36,254 nucleotides of DNA, from assembly GCA_005787345.1 (NCBI GenBank), contig SYBH01000023.1, positions 1 to 36,254 of the forward strand, in the 5' to 3' direction. The DNA comes from Actinomycetota bacterium. GTDB taxonomy: Bacteria > Actinomycetota > Acidimicrobiia > Acidimicrobiales > Acidimicrobilacustridaceae. The notes under the pieces were generated by a model that made no database searches, had not been told where the DNA came from, and saw nothing but the letters and a program-made list of their open reading frames with translations. The first letter of the stretch is position 1. Each line of letters opens with the position of its first letter. The translations under genes were made by a program, and so were the position numbers. Positions 6,540 through 24,273 of the stretch are shown one piece after another.

Positions 6540-7308
6540 CCGCAAACCACTCATCTCCGGTAACTGGAAGATGAACCTCAATCACTTCGAGGCAACAGCA
6601 ACGCTCGACAAGTTGCGCTATCTCCTTTCGAAGGATGATTACGAGGCAGTCGATGTGTCGGTGCACCCGCCATTCACCGACATTCGTACCGTTCAGACAT
6701 TCCTTGAGAGCGAAAAGGTTCCGATCGCTCTCGGTGCGCAGAACTGCCACTGGGAAGCCAACGGCGCCTACACCGGTGAAGTCGCCCCGGGAATGCTCTT
6801 CAAGCTCAACGTTTCCTACGTAATTATCGGACACAGTGAACGACGCGAGATCTTCGGCGAAGACGACGTCATCGTTGCTCGCAAGGTCAAGTCCGTCTTT
6901 GAAAACGGTATGACTCCGATCCTGTGCTGTGGTGAAACACTCGAAGAACGTGAAGGTGAAGCCACCCGCGGAAAGGTCACGGGTCAGATCCACGCCGGTA
7001 TCGAAGCCCTGAAGCCCGAGCAGGTGGCCACAATGGTCCTTGCCTACGAACCGATCTGGGCCATCGGTACAGGCCGCACCGCTAGCGCTGAAGATGCACA
7101 GCAGGTCTGTAACTGGATCCGAGCCAAGGTGAAGGACATGAAGGGTGCGGATGCGGCCAAAGCCGTTCGCATTCAGTACGGAGGCTCGGTTAAGGCGGGA
7201 AATGCTGCCGAACTGATGGGTCAGCCCGATATCGATGGGGCCCTTGTTGGTGGAGCGGCCCTCGATCCCGAGGAATTCGCTCGAATCGTCCAGTTCCGAC
7301 TGTCCTGA
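6532..7308 (+). CDS. tpiA: Triosephosphate isomerase
   Basis: TPI interconverts dihydroxyacetone phosphate and glyceraldehyde 3-phosphate. The 258-residue protein has Lys13 in GNWKMN, the electrophilic His101 in IIGHSERR, the catalytic base Glu173 in AYEPIWAIGTG (which continues into flexible loop 6) and the phosphate-binding YGGSVK and GALVGGAAL near the C-terminus. Start: a longer in-frame reading upstream is a pgk shadow; ATG 6532 has AGGAG six bases upstream and gives MPDRKPLISGNWKMN. It overlaps pgk by eight bases, indicating translational coupling. Confidence 0.97.
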   Translation: MPDRKPLISGNWKMNLNHFEATATLDKLRYLLSKDDYEAVDVSVHPPFTDIRTVQTFLESEKVPIALGAQNCHWEANGAYTGEVAPGMLFKLNVSYVIIGHSERREIFGEDDVIVARKVKSVFENGMTPILCCGETLEEREGEATRGKVTGQIHAGIEALKPEQVATMVLAYEPIWAIGTGRTASAEDAQQVCNWIRAKVKDMKGADAAKAVRIQYGGSVKAGNAAELMGQPDIDGALVGGAALDPEEFARIVQFRLS

Positions 7309-7314
7309 TACGGT
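7309..7314 (+). promoter_or_regulatory. -10 element (TACGGT), leaderless secG promoter
   Basis: TACGGT begins directly after the tpiA stop and ends seven bases before GTG 7322. secG would therefore have its own promoter besides read-through from the glycolytic genes. Confidence 0.55.
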
Positions 7315-7321
7315 CTCAGCC

Positions 7322-7552
7322 GTGCTGATCGCTGTCCTCATCGTCCAGGTGCTCTCCGCCCTCACCCTTATCTTCCTCGTCCTGCTTCATAGCGGTCGGG
7401 GTGGTGGCCTTTCCGACATGTTCGGTGGCGGCTTGGGTGCGTCAGCTGCAGGTTCAACTGTCGTCGAGAAAAATCTCGATCGCATCACCGTGGTTGCGGC
7501 CGTTATTTTCATGTTTGCGTCGGTCGCACTCGCACTCCTGCTCGACAAGTAG
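7322..7552 (+). CDS. secG: Preprotein translocase subunit SecG
   Basis: SecG is the small accessory subunit of the SecYEG channel in the cytoplasmic membrane. The 76 residues form the usual two-helix hairpin: helix one about 3-22 (VLIVQVLSALTLIFLVLLHS), a Gly-rich loop with SGRGGGLSDMFGGGLG and SAAGSTVVEKNLDRIT, and helix two about 53-73. The SGRGGGLSDMFGGG loop is the family signature. Start: there is no ATG in the right place; GTG 7322 with a -10 element seven bases upstream gives the expected N-terminus. Linkage to gap-pgk-tpiA is common in Actinobacteria. Confidence 0.93.
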   Translation: MLIAVLIVQVLSALTLIFLVLLHSGRGGGLSDMFGGGLGASAAGSTVVEKNLDRITVVAAVIFMFASVALALLLDK

Positions 7553-7558
7553 GTCGCC

Positions 7559-8359
7559 ATGGGTCGTTCCGACCCTGCAGCACTTTCACTTCACAACGTC
7601 ACGCTTGTTCGTGAAGGCCGAGCGATCTTGAACAACGTCTCCTGGATGGTGGGCGCTGACGAGCGATGGGTCGTGCTCGGGCGAAATGGTTGCGGGAAAT
7701 CCACGTTGATGAAGATTGCGTCGCTGTATTTGCACCCATCCTCGGGTGATGTCGAGGTGCTGGGCGAGAAACTCGGACGTACCGATGTGCGCTCACTGCG
7801 AAAGCGCATTGGTGTTGCCAGTTCGGGAATGGCAGACCAACTTCGATCCGATCTGATTGCAACCGACGTCGTCATGACGGCAAAAAACGCAGCGCTCGAA
7901 CCCTGGTGGCATACCTACGATGAGGCTGACCGCCAGCGAGCGCTGGACTGTCTCGAGCGAATGGAGATTGGTCGTTTGGCTAATCGCAGTTTCGCCACGT
8001 TGTCATCGGGTGAAAAGCAGCGAGTGTTACTGGCCCGAACCCTGATGCCACAGCCGGGTCTTCTTCTTCTCGACGAGCCCACCGCTGGGCTCGACCTCGC
8101 TGGACGCGAGGACCTTGTTCGCACTCTGGGTATTCTCGCAGCTGGAGTCGACACGCCAGCAACAGTGCTCGTCACCCATCACGTCGAGGAAATCCCAGAA
8201 GGGTTCACAAATATCTTGATGCTTCGCGAAGGCCAGGTGCTCACTGCCGGCCCGCTTGACATTGTGCTCACTGAATCGAATCTTTCCGAATGCTTCGAGA
8301 TGCCGCTTGGTCTCGAACGGCGACATGGTCGATGGTGGGCTTGGGGACTCGAAGCATGA
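7559..8359 (+). CDS. ABC transporter ATP-binding protein without cognate permease
   Basis: A 266-residue single ABC ATPase domain. Walker A is GRNGCGKST (about 42-50), the Q-loop region follows, the signature is LSSGEKQR, Walker B is LLLLDEPT with the D-loop AGLDL, and the H-loop is VTHHVEE. The overall sequence resembles the lone ATPases annotated as ModF/YlmA-like. No membrane component lies beside it unless it works with the downstream CNNM-type proteins, which are not ABC permeases. The start ATG 7559 is six bases after secG, and its stop overlaps the next start (ATGA), so it is translated with the CNNM pair. Substrate or cellular role unknown. Confidence 0.85.
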   Translation: MGRSDPAALSLHNVTLVREGRAILNNVSWMVGADERWVVLGRNGCGKSTLMKIASLYLHPSSGDVEVLGEKLGRTDVRSLRKRIGVASSGMADQLRSDLIATDVVMTAKNAALEPWWHTYDEADRQRALDCLERMEIGRLANRSFATLSSGEKQRVLLARTLMPQPGLLLLDEPTAGLDLAGREDLVRTLGILAAGVDTPATVLVTHHVEEIPEGFTNILMLREGQVLTAGPLDIVLTESNLSECFEMPLGLERRHGRWWAWGLEA

Positions 8360-9708
8360 ACCCGGCATTGGGCCTTGTTGGGTTGTTTTTTCTGATTATC
8401 GCCAACGGGTTCTTCGTTGCGGCCGAATTCGCGCTTGTTGCTGTCGATCGGGCGAAGGTTGAAAACGACGTCGATTCGGGTCGACGTCGCGCTCGAGTTG
8501 CCAAGGACCTCCTTGCGCACCTGTCGTTTCATCTGTCCGGCGCTCAACTCGGAATCACAGTGACATCACTGCTCATCGGTTTCTTGGTAGGGCCTGCGAT
8601 CGCAGAACTCCTGCACCCCGCGCTTGAGCCGTTGGTGGGTTCGACTGCGATGATTGGCGTTTCGTTAGTGATCGCAATCTTTCTCGCAACAGTCGTGCAG
8701 ATGATTGTCGGCGAGTTAGTACCGAAGGGTCTTGCCGTCGCCCGGCCCGAGACAACGGTTTACCTTCTCGGTCCGCTTGTACGAATATACGGAATCATTT
8801 TTGGTCCGCTCATTCGCATGTTGAATGGAGCGGCGAACCGCACCGTTCGCTTGCTCGGCATAGAGCCAACTGAAGAGCTTTCGCATGTTCGAACTCTTTC
8901 GGAAATGCAAATTCTTGTGAGTGCGTCAAGTCGCGGAGGAGTCCTTGATGACTCGGCATCGCAGTTGCTCACGCGATCGATTCGATTCGAAGGAAAGAGT
9001 GCAGAAGATGTGCTCGTCCCGCGCACGGCTGTTACGGCTCTTCAGAGTTCTGCCACGGTTGATGCACTCGTCGAGGCGTCTGTCTCAACGGGACATTCGC
9101 GTTTCCTTGTCTACGGTGAGGATCTCGACGACATCGTTGGGACCGTCCATGTGCGATCTGTTCATGCCGTACCTCGCGCTCAACGTTCCACCACATTGGT
9201 GTCGTCGTTGATGCGCCCCATGCTGGAGTTGCCCGAGAGTCGCGATCTTGCTGATGTGCTTCGGGATTTGCGTCGGGCCAGAACTCATCTCGCAGTGGTG
9301 GTCGACGAATACGGAGGCACTGCGGGGATCATTACGCTCGAAGACATTCTTGAAGAAATCGTCGGCGAAATCGGCGACGAACACGACCGTCGCATGCCCT
9401 CAGCGGTGGTTCCCGGTAGGCGAAATGAATGGTCGTTACCTGGTGGGCTTCATCCCGATGAAGTCGCCGACCAAGTCGGATGCGTGATCCCCGAAGGTGA
9501 GTACGAAACCTTTGCCGGATTCCTTCTTGATCAACTCGGACATCTACCTGCCGTCGGCGAGAAAGTGCTCTGGGGTGACTGGAGCTTTGAAGTCGTTGAG
9601 ATGGATCGACGTCGCATCTCTCAAGTCACCGCTCGGGTGACGGTACCGGATGGTGCTGACGACGCTGCTGGCGGTCCTTCGACAAGTCGAAAGAAGAGGG
9701 ACGACTGA
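8356..9708 (+). CDS. CNNM/HlyC-type membrane protein (DUF21, CBS pair, CorC_HlyC domain)
   Basis: A 450-residue protein of the CNNM/CorC family, implicated elsewhere in Mg2+ transport or homeostasis. The N-terminal DUF21 region has hydrophobic helices (about 4-25, 70-95, 105-130) with family residues in NGFFVAAEFALV and GELVPKGLA. A CBS pair follows (about 205-325), containing VVVDEYGGTAGIITLEDILEEIVGEI, and the C-terminal CorC_HlyC domain (about 350-430) is present. Start: an upstream in-frame ATG exists, but ATG 8356 overlaps the ABC ATPase stop and begins right before the first helix. The next gene is a shorter paralogue; paired genes of this kind occur in Mycobacterium (Rv1842c-Rv1841c as I recall). 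Ion specificity cannot be read from sequence. Confidence 0.9.
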   Translation: MNPALGLVGLFFLIIANGFFVAAEFALVAVDRAKVENDVDSGRRRARVAKDLLAHLSFHLSGAQLGITVTSLLIGFLVGPAIAELLHPALEPLVGSTAMIGVSLVIAIFLATVVQMIVGELVPKGLAVARPETTVYLLGPLVRIYGIIFGPLIRMLNGAANRTVRLLGIEPTEELSHVRTLSEMQILVSASSRGGVLDDSASQLLTRSIRFEGKSAEDVLVPRTAVTALQSSATVDALVEASVSTGHSRFLVYGEDLDDIVGTVHVRSVHAVPRAQRSTTLVSSLMRPMLELPESRDLADVLRDLRRARTHLAVVVDEYGGTAGIITLEDILEEIVGEIGDEHDRRMPSAVVPGRRNEWSLPGGLHPDEVADQVGCVIPEGEYETFAGFLLDQLGHLPAVGEKVLWGDWSFEVVEMDRRRISQVTARVTVPDGADDAAGGPSTSRKKRDD

Positions 9709-17154: not shown

Positions 17155-17847
17155 GTGCTTGACGGTCGTTGGCGAACCAATATTGAGAATGGGTTAAAGC
17201 CGGTTGGGGCGAACTTGCTCAAACTGGGTTTCACCGCCGATCGCCTGACCGCCCTTGGCGTGGTCATGTCAGCTTGCGCAGCAGTTGCGATCGCGGCCGG
17301 CTTTTTGCCCCTAGGACTTCTCCTCCTTGTCCTCACCGGTTTACCCGACGCCCTTGATGGTGCCGTAGCAAAGGCAGCCGGCACCGCTGGTCCTCGGGGT
17401 GCCTTCTTTGACTCTGTCGCCGACCGAGTTTCCGACACGATGTTGCTCGGCGGTGTCGCTTGGTATCTCGCCGATACCTATGGCGGACTCATGCCCCTTC
17501 TGCCGATGGCTGTGCTCGGCGCTTCGCTCATCATCTCCTACGAGCGGGCGAAGGCCGAAGCCCTCGGCTTTAACGCCAAGGGCGGCGTCATGGAGCGCGC
17601 TGAACGCGTCATCCTCCTCGGTCTTGGTCTGCTCTTTCCCGTTCTGTTGATTCCAGTTCTATGGGTCATGCTCGTTCTGACAATCGTGACTGCCGTGCAG
17701 CGCTTTGCGAAGGTGTGGCACCAGGCATCGCAGGAACGTCCCGTTGTTGCACCAACACGCCGAGCGTCCCGTCGCCGTGCCGCCCGCGCAACGCGCGCCG
17801 GGTCGTCACAGTGGCGTCAGAACCTTCAGGCGCGTCGACGCCGTTAG
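17155..17847 (+). CDS. pgsA: CDP-alcohol phosphatidyltransferase, probable phosphatidylinositol phosphate synthase
   Basis: A 230-residue integral membrane enzyme with several hydrophobic helices. In Actinobacteria the homologue between the HIT gene and patA joins CDP-diacylglycerol to inositol 1-phosphate, giving the lipid anchor for phosphatidylinositol mannosides. The CDP-alcohol signature is present as Asp65-x2-Asp68-Gly69-x2-Ala72-Lys73-x8-Gly82-x3-Asp86-x3-Asp90; the four metal-binding aspartates are intact but the usual arginine after Ala72 is lysine. The C-terminal tail (about 195-230) is very Arg-rich and probably sits on the cytoplasmic membrane face. Start GTG 17155 has a leaderless -10. 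The next gene begins six bases after its stop. Inositol specificity is inferred from synteny. Confidence 0.88.
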   Translation: MLDGRWRTNIENGLKPVGANLLKLGFTADRLTALGVVMSACAAVAIAAGFLPLGLLLLVLTGLPDALDGAVAKAAGTAGPRGAFFDSVADRVSDTMLLGGVAWYLADTYGGLMPLLPMAVLGASLIISYERAKAEALGFNAKGGVMERAERVILLGLGLLFPVLLIPVLWVMLVLTIVTAVQRFAKVWHQASQERPVVAPTRRASRRRAARATRAGSSQWRQNLQARRRR

Positions 17848-17853
17848 GCGCTC

Positions 17854-18810
17854 ATGGCGCTAGATCCGGTCACCGCGGCCTATCGCGCGGGTGCAGCCTT
17901 CTCGCGGTCTGTGCCGCGTCCGGTCGCTGAGGTCACTGCAAAAGGTTTAAGTCGTATTGCTGCTTCGATGTCGAAAGAGCGACGCATGCTTGTTGCGAGG
18001 CATCTTCATCGTGCGGATCCCACTCTTGAAGGTAAGGCACTCGACCGCGCCGTCGATGCAACCTTCGACAGTTACGCGCGCTACTGGGTCGACTCTTTTC
18101 GTCTTCCGCAGTTATCTCCAGAAGAAGTTGACTTCAGTTTTGCTTTTGAAAACTTCGCCCATATCGCTGATGCACTGAAAGTGGGCAAGGGAGTAGTGGC
18201 AGTTATGCCGCACTTGGGCGGTTGGGAATGGGCCGCATTTTGGATGACGCAAGTGATGAAGATTCCGGTCACTGCGGTTGTCGAATCGCTCGAGCCTCCT
18301 GGCTTGTTTGAGTTTTTTGTGGAGTTCCGCCGAGAACTCGGGATGAACATCGTTCCGTTGGGGCCTGATGCAGGTAACGAGATTCTGAAGGCATTGAATT
18401 CCAATCATGTCGTGTGCTTGCTTGCCGACCGCGACATCATCGGCGACGGCGTTGAGCTTGAGTTCTTTGGCGAAATCACCACGATCCCGGCAGGCCCAGC
18501 AACGCTGGCATTGCGTACTGGTGCCGCACTCATCCCGTGTGCCGTCTATTTCGAAGGCAGAACTGGTCATCACGCTGTAGTTGAACCGCCTTTGAAAGTC
18601 ATTCGTGAAGGAAGACTTCGTGACGACGTGCGTCGAGTCACCATTGATTTGGCGGGTCGGCTCGAAGGGCTCATTCGCCAAGCGCCGGAGCAGTGGCATC
18701 TGCAGCAGCCGAACTGGCCAAGTGATTACGTCGAACTTGAACGAATCGGCAAACCACATCCACGACCCAAGCGTGGTCCGTCTTCTCTTGCTGCTCGTGG
18801 TGACTACTGA
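17854..18810 (+). CDS. patA: Phosphatidylinositol mannoside acyltransferase (PatA, LpxL/HtrB fold)
   Basis: A 318-residue member of the LpxL/HtrB acyltransferase family. The catalytic HX4E dyad is His120-Glu125 in MPHLGGWEWA; the downstream stretch LADRDIIGDGVELEFFGE and PAGPATLALRTGAALIP aligns with mycobacterial PatA (Rv2611c), which acylates the PimA-added mannose on the inner membrane face. No clear transmembrane helix is present, fitting a peripheral membrane enzyme. It sits between pgsA and pimA exactly as in Mycobacterium, which strengthens the specific assignment over a lipid A enzyme, since this organism should have no lipid A. Start ATG 17854 is six bases after pgsA. Confidence 0.9.
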   Translation: MALDPVTAAYRAGAAFSRSVPRPVAEVTAKGLSRIAASMSKERRMLVARHLHRADPTLEGKALDRAVDATFDSYARYWVDSFRLPQLSPEEVDFSFAFENFAHIADALKVGKGVVAVMPHLGGWEWAAFWMTQVMKIPVTAVVESLEPPGLFEFFVEFRRELGMNIVPLGPDAGNEILKALNSNHVVCLLADRDIIGDGVELEFFGEITTIPAGPATLALRTGAALIPCAVYFEGRTGHHAVVEPPLKVIREGRLRDDVRRVTIDLAGRLEGLIRQAPEQWHLQQPNWPSDYVELERIGKPHPRPKRGPSSLAARGDY

Positions 18811-18811
18811 C

Positions 18812-19888
18812 ATGCGTATCGGGATTGTTTGCCCTTACAGCCTTACCCTTCCAGGTGGTGTGCAAGGTCAGGTGTTGTCGCTCGCCCGTGCTCTTCGGGC
18901 TCGCGGGCACGACGTCCGAGTCCTTGGTCCCTGCGATGGGCCACCACCTGATTCCGGGGTGACGCCTCTGGGTGACAGCCTTCCGACTGCTGCTAACGGA
19001 TCCGTCGCTCCAATTGCCCCCGACCCCTCGGCGCAATTGCGCACGATTCGAGCACTTCGCGACGAACGCTTTGATGTCGTGAATGTCCACGAACCTCTTG
19101 CGCCGGGAGTCACCAATACGGCACTGCTGTTTAAGTCGCAACCGATCGTTGGCACTTTTCATGCGGCGGGGGAGAGCGCTGCCTACCGATGGCTTCAGCC
19201 TGTCGTTCGGTGGTTGGCACGCAAGATCGATGTTCGTTGTGCAGTGTCCGCCGACGCTCGCGACATGGCAATCGAAGCGGTTGGCGGTTCCTATGAACTG
19301 CTCTTCAACGGTGTTGATCTTTCTCACTACGCCGGCCCGGCGATTCCGAAAGCGGAACCGCGCACGATCTTTTTTCTCGGTCGTCATGAACCGCGCAAAG
19401 GTCTCGCTGTGCTGCTCGAAGCAATGGGGGACCTTCCGGCGGGTGTTCGTCTTGTCGTGGCCAGTGACGGACCTGAGACGGAGGAACTTCGTCGACGTGT
19501 TGCCGGTGATACGCGGATTGAATGGCTGGGTCGAATTTCGGAAGCGGAAAAAATTCAACGGCTTCACTCTGCAGAGGTTTTCTGTGCGCCCTCGCTTGGC
19601 GGCGAATCATTCGGTGTCGTGCTACTCGAAGCTATGGCTGCGAAGACAGCGGTGGTCGCCAGCAATCTCCCCGGTTACGCCAATGTGGCGAGATCCAATA
19701 AAGACGCACTTCTCGTCCCACCAGGAGATCCAGCGGTTCTCGCAGGGGCATTGCGAAGAGTTCTCGACGAAGCGCCTCTGCGTGAATCGCTTGTGGCCTC
19801 GGGCTCAGAGCGAGCAGAGGGATTCTCGATGGATCACCTTGCTGAACGCTATGAGGAGATCTTCGAGCGTGTAGCGCTTCGCCGGTAG
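18812..19888 (+). CDS. pimA: Phosphatidylinositol alpha-mannosyltransferase PimA
   Basis: PimA transfers mannose from GDP-mannose to phosphatidylinositol at the cytoplasmic membrane face. The 358-residue GT4/GT-B protein opens MRIGIVCPYSLTLPGGVQGQ, with the Gly-Gly loop of the family, has VHEPLAPG and GTFHAAG in the N-terminal domain, LFNGVDLSHY at the domain hinge, FFLGRHEPRKG, and the nucleotide-sugar block APSLGGESFGVVLLEAMAA, whose Glu residues bind GDP-mannose. Start: longer in-frame readings begin inside patA; ATG 18812 lies one base after the patA stop and gives the same N-terminus as mycobacterial PimA. GTG 18800 is a weaker alternative. Co-transcribed with pgsA and patA. Confidence 0.93.
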   Translation: MRIGIVCPYSLTLPGGVQGQVLSLARALRARGHDVRVLGPCDGPPPDSGVTPLGDSLPTAANGSVAPIAPDPSAQLRTIRALRDERFDVVNVHEPLAPGVTNTALLFKSQPIVGTFHAAGESAAYRWLQPVVRWLARKIDVRCAVSADARDMAIEAVGGSYELLFNGVDLSHYAGPAIPKAEPRTIFFLGRHEPRKGLAVLLEAMGDLPAGVRLVVASDGPETEELRRRVAGDTRIEWLGRISEAEKIQRLHSAEVFCAPSLGGESFGVVLLEAMAAKTAVVASNLPGYANVARSNKDALLVPPGDPAVLAGALRRVLDEAPLRESLVASGSERAEGFSMDHLAERYEEIFERVALRR

Positions 19889-19924: not shown

Positions 19925-20692
19925 GTGACTTCCACTCTTGAGCAAGCGTCGCCTCGTTCCGCCAGATATGGACTCGCCGCTGCACTGCCACTCGCTTTAT
20001 TGGGCCTGATCGTCGCCGCAGTTCTTGCGGGAGTTGCAGGCATCGTTGGTTTGATCATCGGTCTTTTGATCACTGCGGTAGCCGTGGTTGTCCGGATGCG
20101 CACCTTTGCTGCCGGAATCGACGATGCGATTATTCATCAGCTTGGAGCCAAGCCTGCCGATGGTCCCGAAGCAGCCGGGTTCCGCAATCTCGCTGAGGGG
20201 CTTTCTGCCACAGCCGGAGTCCCTCTTCCAGAACTGCTGATCCTCGACACTCCCTCTGTGAATCTTCTCGTTGTCGGAACCGATGCCGAACACGCAGCCA
20301 TGATCGCCACTTCTGGGCTGCTTTCCCAGTTGAGCCGTGTCGAACTTGAGGGCGTTGTTGCGCGAGCATTTGTACAACTTCGTCAGGGAGACGTTTTCTC
20401 CGCCACGATGGGTGTCCGACTCGAAGCCGCCCCTGCGACGCGAGTCTTCGCCTCGATGCTGGGTCACAGTTCAAGTCTTGGCGATCCCGATCGCGACCTA
20501 CTCCTCGATCGTTCGGCGGTGGTGCTTACTCGCTATCCACCCGGACTGATTGGTGCACTTGGAGTGTGTCTTCGAGTGGGATCCATGGTGTCGGCGGGGT
20601 CGCCTTCATTGCGCCGACTTTGGCTTGTCGATCCAATTTCTGTTGATGCAGATGCCCTTACCCATCGGATGGAAGCGCTTCGATTGCTATGA
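19925..20692 (+). CDS. Degenerate M48 (HtpX-like) peptidase homologue lacking its zinc site
   Basis: A 255-residue membrane protein: two N-terminal hydrophobic helices (about 17-40 and 38-57), then a domain that follows HtpX block by block: VPLPELLILDTPSVN, VVGTDAEHAAMIATSGLLSQL and LSRVELEGVVARAFVQLRQGD. In active HtpX the last block reads AHELxHxxxxD; here the HExxH positions are Arg147-Ala-Phe-Val-Gln151, and the later glutamate ligand (E in EADxxA) is also lost in LLLDRSAVVLTRYPPGL. The frame is clean, so it is a pseudoenzyme rather than a broken gene. GTG 19925 has GAAGG at six bases. Its stop overlaps the start of the DUF3048 gene (ATGA). A regulatory or scaffold role at the membrane is inference. 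Confidence 0.75.
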   Translation: MTSTLEQASPRSARYGLAAALPLALLGLIVAAVLAGVAGIVGLIIGLLITAVAVVVRMRTFAAGIDDAIIHQLGAKPADGPEAAGFRNLAEGLSATAGVPLPELLILDTPSVNLLVVGTDAEHAAMIATSGLLSQLSRVELEGVVARAFVQLRQGDVFSATMGVRLEAAPATRVFASMLGHSSSLGDPDRDLLLDRSAVVLTRYPPGLIGALGVCLRVGSMVSAGSPSLRRLWLVDPISVDADALTHRMEALRLL

Positions 20693-21888
20693 CTCGCAAA
20701 AAGCTGTGGATGATCATTGGTGGATCGGTCGGAGCCCTTGTCATTGTGGGCGGGGTCGTGTTCGCTCTCACCCGGTCCGATTCCACTGAGTCGGCAATCC
20801 CCGAGACAACAACCACCACGACAACAACCACCCTTCCGGTATGGCCGCTTACGGGTGTGCCCGACGCGAAAGCCAGTGGACCTGCTCACCCTGCCATTGT
20901 GGTGAAAATCGACAACAGTCCTGCTTCTCGCCCGCAAACTGGCATCAACGAAGCCGACATTGTCTACGAAGTGCTTGTCGAAGGCATTACTCGATACGCA
21001 TTGGTCTTCCACTCGAACATCGTCGATCCTGTCGGTCCAGTCCGCTCAGCTCGATCGAGTGACATCAACCTTGTTGCCAATCTCTCAACGCCATTGTTTT
21101 CTTGGTCGGGAGGCAACGCAGGAGTTGTTGGTGAAGTCCGGAATGCGGAGCGCAACGGGATTCTGATTGATGCTTCGCATGATGCAGCGTCTCCGGCGTA
21201 TTACCGAGCGAACGATCGTCAGGCACCACACAATTTGTATGTGCATCTTCCGCAACTTCTTGAGCTGAAGGCTCCTGCGAATCAAGGTAACCCTGCACCG
21301 ATCTTCAACTTCCGCAAGGTCGTCACTTCGCCATCCAGCACAACGACGTCCTCTTCGTCAACGACAACCTCAAAAAAGGCATCGTCAGAAACGACAACGA
21401 CAACGATTGCGATCCCGACCACGACGACAACACTTCCAGGTTCACCGACACCGGGTTTCAGTCTCGATTTCGGTGGGGTCAATGTCGACTATGTGTGGAA
21501 CCCTGCCACCAAGGGTTGGTCGCGTCTGCAGGTCGACCAGACCCATCCCCGACCAAAGAGTTCGACACTCGATGCCGCAGGTGTTCAGGTCTCTCCTGAA
21601 AATGTGATCGTGCAGTTCATCGACTACGGCCAAAGTCCGTCCGACAGCCGTTCTCCGATGGCACTTACGGTTGGGTCGGGCAAGGTGCTCGTCTTCACCG
21701 ACGGTCGGGTAGTGGCCGGAACATGGTCTCGTCCCTCGGCCGACAAACCCACGACCTACACCGCCACCGACGGAACACCGATTCTCCTGACGCCCGGTCG
21801 GACATGGGTGGCCTTGCCTAGGGCGGGCTCGGCGGTTGCAACACTCGACCAGCCCACTGCCGACGCGTTTCTTGCCATCAAGGGTTGA
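20689..21888 (+). CDS. DUF3048 (YerB-like) membrane-anchored extracytoplasmic protein
   Basis: A 399-residue protein with an N-terminal anchor helix (about 7-28) and no lipobox cysteine, so it is membrane-anchored rather than a lipoprotein like Bacillus YerB. A Thr-run (residues 40-48) leads to the first DUF3048 part (about 55-205), which contains PAIVVKIDNSPASRPQ, VYEVLVEGITRYALVFHS and GPVRSARSSDI. A 40-residue Ser/Thr-rich segment (213-252) separates it from the C-terminal part (about 255-399), with VDYVWNPATKGWSR and GRTWVALP. Function of the family is unknown. ATG 20689 overlaps the previous stop. It ends the PIM transcript, with a hairpin just after. Confidence 0.85.
   Translation: MTRKKLWMIIGGSVGALVIVGGVVFALTRSDSTESAIPETTTTTTTTTLPVWPLTGVPDAKASGPAHPAIVVKIDNSPASRPQTGINEADIVYEVLVEGITRYALVFHSNIVDPVGPVRSARSSDINLVANLSTPLFSWSGGNAGVVGEVRNAERNGILIDASHDAASPAYYRANDRQAPHNLYVHLPQLLELKAPANQGNPAPIFNFRKVVTSPSSTTTSSSSTTTSKKASSETTTTTIAIPTTTTTLPGSPTPGFSLDFGGVNVDYVWNPATKGWSRLQVDQTHPRPKSSTLDAAGVQVSPENVIVQFIDYGQSPSDSRSPMALTVGSGKVLVFTDGRVVAGTWSRPSADKPTTYTATDGTPILLTPGRTWVALPRAGSAVATLDQPTADAFLAIKG
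20806..20832 (+). repeat. Poly-threonine codon run in the DUF3048 gene
   Basis: Nine ACN codons in a row (residues 40-48), mostly ACA/ACC/ACG, form a low-complexity linker just outside the membrane helix. Mixed codons argue against a recent slippage expansion. Confidence 0.7.
21325..21444 (+). repeat. Ser/Thr-rich low-complexity insert in the DUF3048 gene
   Basis: Residues 213-252 are almost all Ser and Thr with a TTTTTIAIPTTTTTLPG end, placed between the two halves of the DUF3048 fold. It is a flexible extracytoplasmic linker and a possible O-mannosylation target, in line with the neighbouring mannosyltransferase, though that link is only suggestive. Confidence 0.6.
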
Positions 21889-21936: not shown

Positions 21937-22842
21937 ATGGCTGATCTGACCAACGGGATTGTCTCCCGAGCAACCGGTACCGACCTCGTCCAGCGTGGAC
22001 TCGCTGACATGCTCAAGGGCGGCGTCATCATGGACGTTGTCGATCCGGCGCAGGCCAAGATCGCTGAAGACGCCGGTGCGGTTGCGGTCATGGCGCTCGA
22101 GCGGGTGCCTTCCGACATTCGTCGCGACGGTGGTGTGGCTCGTATGAGCGACCCGGAGATGATTCAGGGCATTCAGGAAGTCGTCAGCATTCCAGTGATG
22201 GCCAAAGCTCGTATTGGTCACATCGCCGAGGCTCAGATCCTTCAGGCCCTGCGGGTCGACTACATCGACGAGTCCGAAGTTCTCACGCCGGCTGACGAAG
22301 CCCATCACATCGACAAGTGGGCTTTTGAAGTTCCGTTCGTTTGTGGTGCAACCAATCTTGGCGAAGCACTCCGCCGCATTTCCGAAGGCGCGTGCATGAT
22401 TCGCTCAAAGGGCGAGGCCGGCACGGGCAACGTTGTCGAAGCGGTCCGTCACCTTCGTTCGATCCTTGGCGACATTCGTAAGATCACCACCGCTGATCAA
22501 GCCGAACTGTTCGATTGGGCCAAGCGTCTGCAAGCGCCACTTCCGCTCGTGCAGGAAATCGCCGAAACCGGAACGCTTCCCGTGCCGATGTTCTGTGCTG
22601 GTGGCATTGCCACGCCCGCCGACGCGTCACTCGTGATGCAACTCGGTGCTCAGGCCGTATTCGTCGGATCGGGAATCTTCAAGAGTTCCGATCCCTCGCA
22701 CATGGCCAAGGCCATCGTTGAGGCCACCGCCAACTATCTTGATCCCGACATTCTTGCGAAGGTCAGTCGTGGTCTCGGCGACGCAATGCCCGGTCTCGAA
22801 ATCGGTTCGCTTGAAACAAGACTCTCTGAGCGGGGTTGGTGA
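21937..22842 (+). CDS. pdxS: Pyridoxal 5'-phosphate synthase, synthase subunit PdxS
   Basis: PdxS builds PLP from ribose 5-phosphate, glyceraldehyde 3-phosphate and ammonia; the glyceraldehyde 3-phosphate comes from the glycolytic pathway whose genes lie upstream. The 301-residue beta-barrel enzyme is highly conserved: [44 protein letters not shown] with the Schiff-base lysine, [27 protein letters not shown], the phosphate-binding [11 protein letters not shown] (which includes the second reactive lysine), and [11 protein letters not shown] with FVGSGIFKS. Start fixed by the leaderless -10. Forms a 24-subunit complex with PdxT in known systems. Confidence 0.98.
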
Positions 22843-22895
22843 ACCGCAACGCGGTGAACCGTTTCAAATGACTGCTCGTGGATCGGAGCCCCCAG

Positions 22896-23483
22896 GTGGC
22901 TCTTCCCCGTATCGGAATACTCGCGCTCCAAGGGGCAGTTGATCTGCACGTTCATGTATTTGAACGCCTGGGTGTCAAAACTGTTGAGGTGCGTCGGGCC
23001 GAGCATTTAGCTCGTGTTGACGGATTGGTTCTGCCCGGCGGCGAATCCAGCACGATCTCGAAACTGCTCGTCATCAACGAATTGTTCGAACCGTTGGCAG
23101 AACGACTCGATGCGGGAATGCCTGCGTTCGGAACTTGTGCAGGGATGATCATGTTGGCTTCGGAGATTCTCGACGGTCGCGACGATCAGTTGTCGTTCAG
23201 CGCTATCGACATTTCTGTTCGACGCAACGCGTTTGGTCGTCAGATCGATTCGTTCGAAACCGATCTGAACGTGATCGGCTTGGCCGAAGCTCCGGTTCAT
23301 GCCGTGTTTATTCGGGCACCAGTTGTTGAACGAGTCGGTCCGGGTGTTGAGATTCTCGCCGCGGTTGAAGAAGGTCGGCCCGTGGCCTGTCGTCAAGGCT
23401 CAGTGCTCGTGACCTCATTTCACCCGGAATTGTCACCCGATCTGCGACTCCATGAACTATTCATCAAGGGGATGGCAGCATGA
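22896..23483 (+). CDS. pdxT: Pyridoxal 5'-phosphate synthase, glutaminase subunit PdxT
   Basis: PdxT is the class I glutaminase that channels ammonia into PdxS. The 195 residues show IGILALQGAV at the N-terminus, the oxyanion LPGGESST, the nucleophile Cys81 in GTCAGMIML, and the His-Glu pair in TSFHPELSPDLRLHELF at the end. Start: GTG 22878 is in frame, but GTG 22896 has GGAG seven bases upstream and gives a normal-length N-terminus (ALPRIGILALQG). It lies 53 bases after pdxS. The otherwise typical EH after LQGAV is replaced by DLH. Confidence 0.95.
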   Translation: MALPRIGILALQGAVDLHVHVFERLGVKTVEVRRAEHLARVDGLVLPGGESSTISKLLVINELFEPLAERLDAGMPAFGTCAGMIMLASEILDGRDDQLSFSAIDISVRRNAFGRQIDSFETDLNVIGLAEAPVHAVFIRAPVVERVGPGVEILAAVEEGRPVACRQGSVLVTSFHPELSPDLRLHELFIKGMAA

Positions 23484-23523
23484 GTGCGCTCCTCGCAGTA
23501 TCTGACCAGTAAGAGAGGCACCG

Positions 23524-24273
23524 ATGTCCGGACATTCCAAATGGGCGACGATCAAGCACAAGAAGGGCGCTGCTGACCAAAAGCGCGCCAAGGTGTTTGC
23601 CAAGTTGATCCGTCAGGTCGAGGTTGCCGCTCGTGAAGGTGGCGGCGATCCTGCGATGAACCCAGCGCTGCGCACGATGTTCCAAAAGGCGCGCGACAGT
23701 TCAGTCCCGATCGACACCATTGAGCGCGCGATCAAGCGCGGCACTGGTGAACTCGAGGGCGTCACCTATGAGCAGATCACCTACGAGGGCTATGCGCCTC
23801 ACGGTGTCGCAATCCTCATCGACGTGCTTACCGATAATCGCAATCGTTCGGGTAGCGAGGTACGTACCGCGCTGAAGAAAACCGGAGGCTCGCTTGCCGA
23901 ACCCGGTGCCGTGTCGTGGCAGTTCGAACGAAAGGGTGTCATCATCCTTCCGCGAAGCGCTGAAGAAGACGACATCATGATGGCGGCACTCGACGCTGGT
24001 CTCGAAGATCTTGCCGATGAAGGAGACACATGGAAGCTGGTGTGCGCGCCAACTGATCTTGCTGGGGTGCGCGCTGCGCTTGAAGAAGCAGGCATCGCTA
24101 TTGAGTCTGCTGATTCAACAATGGTGTCGACCACAACAGTGATGCTTGATACTGCCGATGCAGCCAAGGCTGTGCTTCGGGTTATCGATGCCCTCGAAGA
24201 CGACGACGACGTCCAAGACGTCTACGCCAACTTTGACATTCCCGATGCGATCATGGGCTCCATCGATCTCTAG
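23524..24273 (+). CDS. yebC: YebC/PmpR family protein
   Basis: A 249-residue cytoplasmic protein of the YebC/PmpR/TACO1 family, with reported roles as transcriptional regulator and, more recently, in relieving ribosome stalling on polyproline. The signature MSGHSKWATIKHKKGAADQKRAKVF starts the protein (its first 10 residues MSGHSKWATI are nearly invariant), followed by GGGDPAMNPALR, KARDSSVPIDTIERAIKRG and the acidic C-terminal domain EDDDDVQDVYANFDIP. ATG 23524 has GAGAGG upstream. In many Actinobacteria ruvC-ruvA-ruvB follow; here a peroxiredoxin follows, so ruvCAB must be elsewhere. Confidence 0.96.
   Translation: MSGHSKWATIKHKKGAADQKRAKVFAKLIRQVEVAAREGGGDPAMNPALRTMFQKARDSSVPIDTIERAIKRGTGELEGVTYEQITYEGYAPHGVAILIDVLTDNRNRSGSEVRTALKKTGGSLAEPGAVSWQFERKGVIILPRSAEEDDIMMAALDAGLEDLADEGDTWKLVCAPTDLAGVRAALEEAGIAIESADSTMVSTTTVMLDTADAAKAVLRVIDALEDDDDVQDVYANFDIPDAIMGSIDL

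Follow-up and report, generated by a model that had tools for sequence, protein, structure and literature searches.

Why would a locus for phosphatidylinositol mannoside (PIM), a cell-envelope glycolipid, carry a gene for a relative of the protease HtpX that has lost its catalytic residues, and what could such a protein do? The question is raised by the window, the whole 36,254-nucleotide stretch of acidimicrobial DNA analysed here, in which an HtpX-derived protein of 255 amino acids is encoded at positions 19925–20692 of the forward strand. All neighbouring genes discussed below lie on the same strand.

The gene and its locus

The gene order is pgsA-patA-pimA-X-DUF3048-pdxS-pdxT-yebC, where X is the HtpX-derived gene, and the position of X is referred to as the slot. 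The upstream genes encode a pgsA-like CDP-alcohol phosphatidyltransferase (17155–17847; Pfam PF01066), a patA-like PIM acyltransferase (17854–18810; NF005919 above its cut-off, and PF03279) and a pimA-like GT4 glycosyltransferase (18812–19888, with a deduced start), recognised by Pfam and by its synteny in the PimA position. Downstream are the DUF3048 protein gene (20689–21888; PF11258/PF17479) and a conserved 3' flank formed by pdxS, pdxT and yebC (21937–24273), named by sequence and conserved order. The slot gene begins with GTG 36 bp past the pimA stop, and its own stop shares the sequence ATGA (20689–20692) with the ATG of the DUF3048 gene, an overlap of 4 nt. The intact frame and the start and stop coupled to the neighbours, as given in a preliminary description made from the sequence, all hold.

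HtpX ancestry and the lost metal site

The descent of the slot protein from HtpX (M48B), as read from its sequence, is secure. The NCBIfam HtpX model matches the window protein at 5e-25 with 88 bits, a score far under the 355-bit cut-off of the model, and Pfam M48 (PF01435) gives no match to it. A profile of the window's clade matches the solved HtpX domain 3cqb at E 2.3e-9 over residues 75–162 and aligns to a profile of the intact slot orthologues with 100% probability (2e-40, hhalign). These comparisons bear out the M48/HtpX origin proposed earlier. With HtpX of the M48B type (NF003425/PRK04897 type; 3cqb) the protein shares the N-terminal hairpin, the GLL strand, the ELEG helix and the C-terminal helices, and it is homologous to the intact slot orthologues over most of its chain. 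It differs in lacking the HExxH motif, the third-ligand glutamate, the TM3–TM4 hairpin and an adjoining lemA. The AlphaFold2 model of the window protein, built from few input sequences, is poor (pLDDT 45, pTM 0.28), and its best PDB match, again 3cqb (Foldseek probability 0.72, E 0.33), is suggestive only; retention of the M48 fold is therefore argued from sequence and profile homology, which is best for residues 75–162, and a whole M48 fold is presumed by extension.

Both zinc-site features of an active M48 (HtpX) peptidase are missing. The sequence RAFVQ at residues 147–151 (20363–20377, forward strand) occupies the position of HExxH, following a GLL-x-ELEGVVA-type block, and the third zinc ligand, the Glu of the downstream ExxxD, is replaced by Asp191 (20495–20497, forward strand), so that both substitutions reported in the preliminary description are present. 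Judged from hydropathy alone, on which all statements about membrane topology here are based, the window protein keeps only the N-terminal pair of the four membrane helices of HtpX. This hydrophobic hairpin (TM1–TM2, approximately residues 17–59, 19973–20101) is also helical in the low-confidence model. At the position of TM3–TM4 there is a shortened linker (approximately residues 157–187, 20393–20485) with no hydrophobic segment left, which adds a lost hairpin to the two retained anchor helices noted before. Hydropathy gives the same picture across slot copies: two hydrophobic segments follow HExxH in 28 of 29 intact full-length copies, while 57 of 61 short metal-lost copies show no such segment.

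Purifying selection on a protein without a catalytic site

Genus orthologues that cover the region at 79–95% identity have RAFVQ, identical length and the same synteny, and more distant congeners have the variants RAFAQ, RALMQ or RGIAE. HExxH is thus lost clade-wide in the close orthologues, and none of them has a frameshift; HExxH is present in more distant slot orthologues, yet the gene of the window is intact. Frames are open in essentially all members of the slot family. Comparison of the slot gene with eight relatives gave dN/dS values of 0.057–0.076 where computable, which resemble those of patA (0.047–0.087) and are at or below those of the DUF3048 gene (0.064–0.116); pimA has 0.016–0.045. 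Synonymous sites are saturated in many of the pairs, and the closest and least saturated comparison (dS 0.34) yields 0.076. Because of these low ratios the slot gene is not a pseudogene, and the protein combines the two marks of a pseudopeptidase, lost catalytic residues and purifying selection. A clade-wide loss of the metal site in an intact frame under purifying selection implies a kept non-catalytic role, as had been suggested earlier, and the sequences indicate that the slot protein very probably has a second job that needs no cutting.

Recurrent loss in one chromosomal slot

In many relatives within the order the slot is occupied by a full HtpX whose HExxH...E is intact, usually with lemA just before it, and one genome of another order has an intact full HtpX there as well. 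Slot genes were recognised by pimA or pdxS nearby on the same strand, in genomes that are mostly drafts or MAGs. Among 119 slot genes, the metal site is lost in 59 and intact in 60. On a tree of the neighbouring genes (a quick tree with SH-aLRT support only), parsimony counts 17 changes of metal-site state, at least 11 of which are forced by well-supported branches. The direction is that of loss, since all 27 off-slot HtpX copies compared and the slot copy of the other-order genome keep the metal site. The change is a recurrent in-place loss and not one odd gene. The window's clade represents one well-supported loss (100/98 in a gene tree computed minus the motif columns). The replacements of the ligands vary by lineage: the first His is changed to Arg, Glu, Ala, Gln and others, the second mostly to Arg, and the third-ligand Glu mostly to Asp or Val.

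A salt bridge between Arg147 and Asp191 in place of the zinc seemed general in the first 94 slot genes and was broken by further genomes, in which two more families combine Arg with Val, Leu or Phe and several have Asp without Arg. The pairing is non-significant on the tree and stays only a clade-specific possibility. Separately, one slot copy with HELLR (G029:C557:1-8500) has an in-frame TAG in its matched part, and is possibly truncated or poses a start-site question.

Slot copies that have lost the metal site tend also to lack the TM3–TM4 hairpin and an adjoining lemA. In intact loci lemA lies between pimA and htpX, as seen from open reading frames and from Pfam PF04011 matches immediately upstream of the slot htpX. 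It adjoins 26 of 27 full-length intact slot copies, 3 of 28 hairpin-less intact copies and 12 of 61 metal-lost copies. In tests on phylogenetically independent pairs, metal site and lemA changed in the same direction by 5.8 to 0 (median p = 0.03), and the tests were non-significant for hairpin with lemA (0.18) and for metal site with hairpin (0.125).

Other M48 copies in the same genomes

The only lemA of the window genome (C142:7566-8009) adjoins an intact HtpX away from the slot, a separate lemA-htpX pair (C142:5500-8700) with HExxH present as HETGH, and a further HtpX is found on C48. These copies would suit a slot protein that regulates active HtpX as a decoy or dominant-negative partner, comparable to iRhoms in rhomboid signalling, or one that is a freed duplicate. 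However, the slot gene is kept in genomes G018 and G034, where no Pfam M48 match was found at E up to 0.01; both have completeness estimates of 100%, although they are drafts and a gene may have been missed. In addition, G007 has just a weak and partial M48 match. We therefore favour a catalysis-independent scaffold or adaptor, and it seems unlikely that the slot protein acts only by regulating an active sibling. Of the role suggested in the preliminary description, the non-catalytic part stands and the iRhom-like regulation of an active sibling is disfavoured, at least for G018 and G034.

By Pfam PF04011, lemA is absent altogether from G018, G027 and G034, so that G018 and G034 apparently lack any active HtpX as well as lemA. 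Takeover by an off-slot lemA-htpX pair was considered as a full explanation of the losses; it suits many genomes of the window's genus and of group g4, and was set aside in view of the three genomes without lemA.

Conserved residues outside the metal site

Several features outlast the metal site. The motif TRYPPGL (residues 202–208, 20528–20548, forward strand) is specific to the slot and kept after metal loss: leaving out loci fetched by TR[YF]PP itself, this motif occurs in 47 of the 48 slot copies with an intact metal site and in 36 of the 44 that have lost it, and none of the 27 off-slot copies has it. Trp233 is present in all 48 metal-intact and all 44 metal-lost slot copies, and also in 17 of the 27 off-slot copies. 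The metal-lost copies show no variation at Glu142, Asp195 and Arg248. Only columns 114, 147, 148, 156 and 191 are conserved at 90% or more in metal-intact copies and below 50% in metal-lost copies, and four columns (147, 148, 151 and 191) themselves define this grouping. The retention of TR[YF]PP together with Trp233, Glu142, Asp195 and Arg248 suggests that slot proteins have a non-catalytic function in common.

These residues bear on two other explanations. One is a changed enzyme, with a new site for catalysis or ligand binding in place of the former one; such a site could be formed by residues such as Glu142, Asp195, Arg203, Trp233 and Arg248, which hardly vary across the slot family. The same residues are, however, equally conserved in metal-intact slot copies and hence mark no activity gained at the loss, and the ligand replacements differ among lineages, which makes this explanation improbable. 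The other is slow decay of a redundant copy, freed when another lemA-htpX pair took over and functionless at present. Its support comes from lemA, hairpin and metal site having been lost together, from the off-slot lemA-htpX pair in many genomes of the window's genus and from the long branches of metal-lost copies in the gene tree, which relaxed constraint would likewise predict. But dN/dS is 0.06–0.08, frames are open in essentially all members, non-catalytic residues are near-invariant across independent lost lineages, and the gene is retained in genomes without another detectable M48. Decay appears largely refuted by the dN/dS values and the shared conserved residues, and we give it very little credence.

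Possible role at the PIM locus

These results lead us to propose that the slot protein is a pseudopeptidase anchored in the membrane by two helices and facing the cytosol, and that at the PIM locus it acts like a scaffold or adaptor, independently of catalysis, a reading to which we assign a probability of about 0.55. The ancestor of the Acidimicrobiia-type group may have had an HtpX (M48B) together with LemA in its PIM/pyridoxal-phosphate locus, with the slot gene as the positional descendant of that HtpX. The slot of the window's clade has lost lemA, the TM3–TM4 hairpin, the catalytic Glu and each of the three zinc ligands. Since TM3 and TM4 were lost as a helix pair, the topology would be unchanged, leaving two N-terminal helices as the anchor and, in the cytosol, a single uninterrupted M48-type domain. 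The kept surface (the GLL...ELEG helix, the TRYPP segment and the C-terminal LW...R...L) could be the part through which HtpX binds proteins or the membrane, at work here with no cutting involved. Most likely the protein would be co-expressed with the membrane-associated envelope enzymes encoded in the locus and act in the membrane as their scaffold, adaptor or holding factor. Candidate clients, guessed from synteny, are PgsA, PatA and PimA or the DUF3048 protein, and the link to PIM enzymes is our guess from synteny and gene coupling alone.

Alternatively, the non-catalytic role might belong to the general quality control of membrane proteins, the usual task of the protease HtpX, or be linked to pdxS-pdxT. 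These two genes also neighbour the slot gene and count against a PIM-specific reading; together with yebC they flank the slot almost as constantly as pimA does. In the window's clade, however, about 40 bp separate the slot gene from pimA, the DUF3048 gene follows directly or at a short distance, and pdxS is located more than 1 kb farther downstream; we consider this alternative rather unlikely. Returning to a scaffold at the PIM locus, we tentatively entertain a broader version, in which the slot repeatedly turns HtpX into a non-catalytic membrane scaffold that serves glycolipid synthesis, cutting was never the main task there, and active and inactive forms alike bind clients through a conserved TRYPP/Trp surface; this is possible, though we would not rely on it.

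Comparison with known pseudoenzymes

Pseudoenzymes are usually viewed as single, old events. At least 11 well-supported metal-site changes in one syntenic slot instead provide a natural replicate series, running from the full enzyme with LemA through a hairpin-less enzyme to the pseudoenzyme, from which a non-catalytic function of HtpX may be read. The series may thereby indicate what HtpX conserves besides cutting, and the slot protein becomes a candidate for a new component in the biogenesis of PIM or of the envelope. In common with iRhoms and other pseudopeptidases, a protease fold (here assigned by homology) is under selection after the loss of catalytic residues. The slot protein differs from iRhoms in its family, in the repetition of the loss at a single chromosomal position and in occurring also where no active sibling is detected. 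A review of pseudopeptidases that includes metallopeptidase cases mentions neither M48 nor HtpX (PMC11266112). The chloroplast FtsHi proteins are membrane metalloprotease homologues that lack zinc-binding motifs and are yet required (PMC4070914); they differ in belonging to the AAA+ FtsH family and to a eukaryotic organelle (PMC4070914). Among open-licence papers, we found none on such an M48 pseudopeptidase or on the Acidimicrobiia locus.

Variation among the surveyed loci

Two minor observations concern the composition of the locus and its records. Two consecutive DUF3048 genes follow the slot htpX in several relatives (L060, at 7087-8995, L062, L066, L071, L074 and L079). A record titled as a Bifidobacterium breve MAG (L037) has an Acidimicrobiia-type locus at 80% identity and is probably mislabelled.
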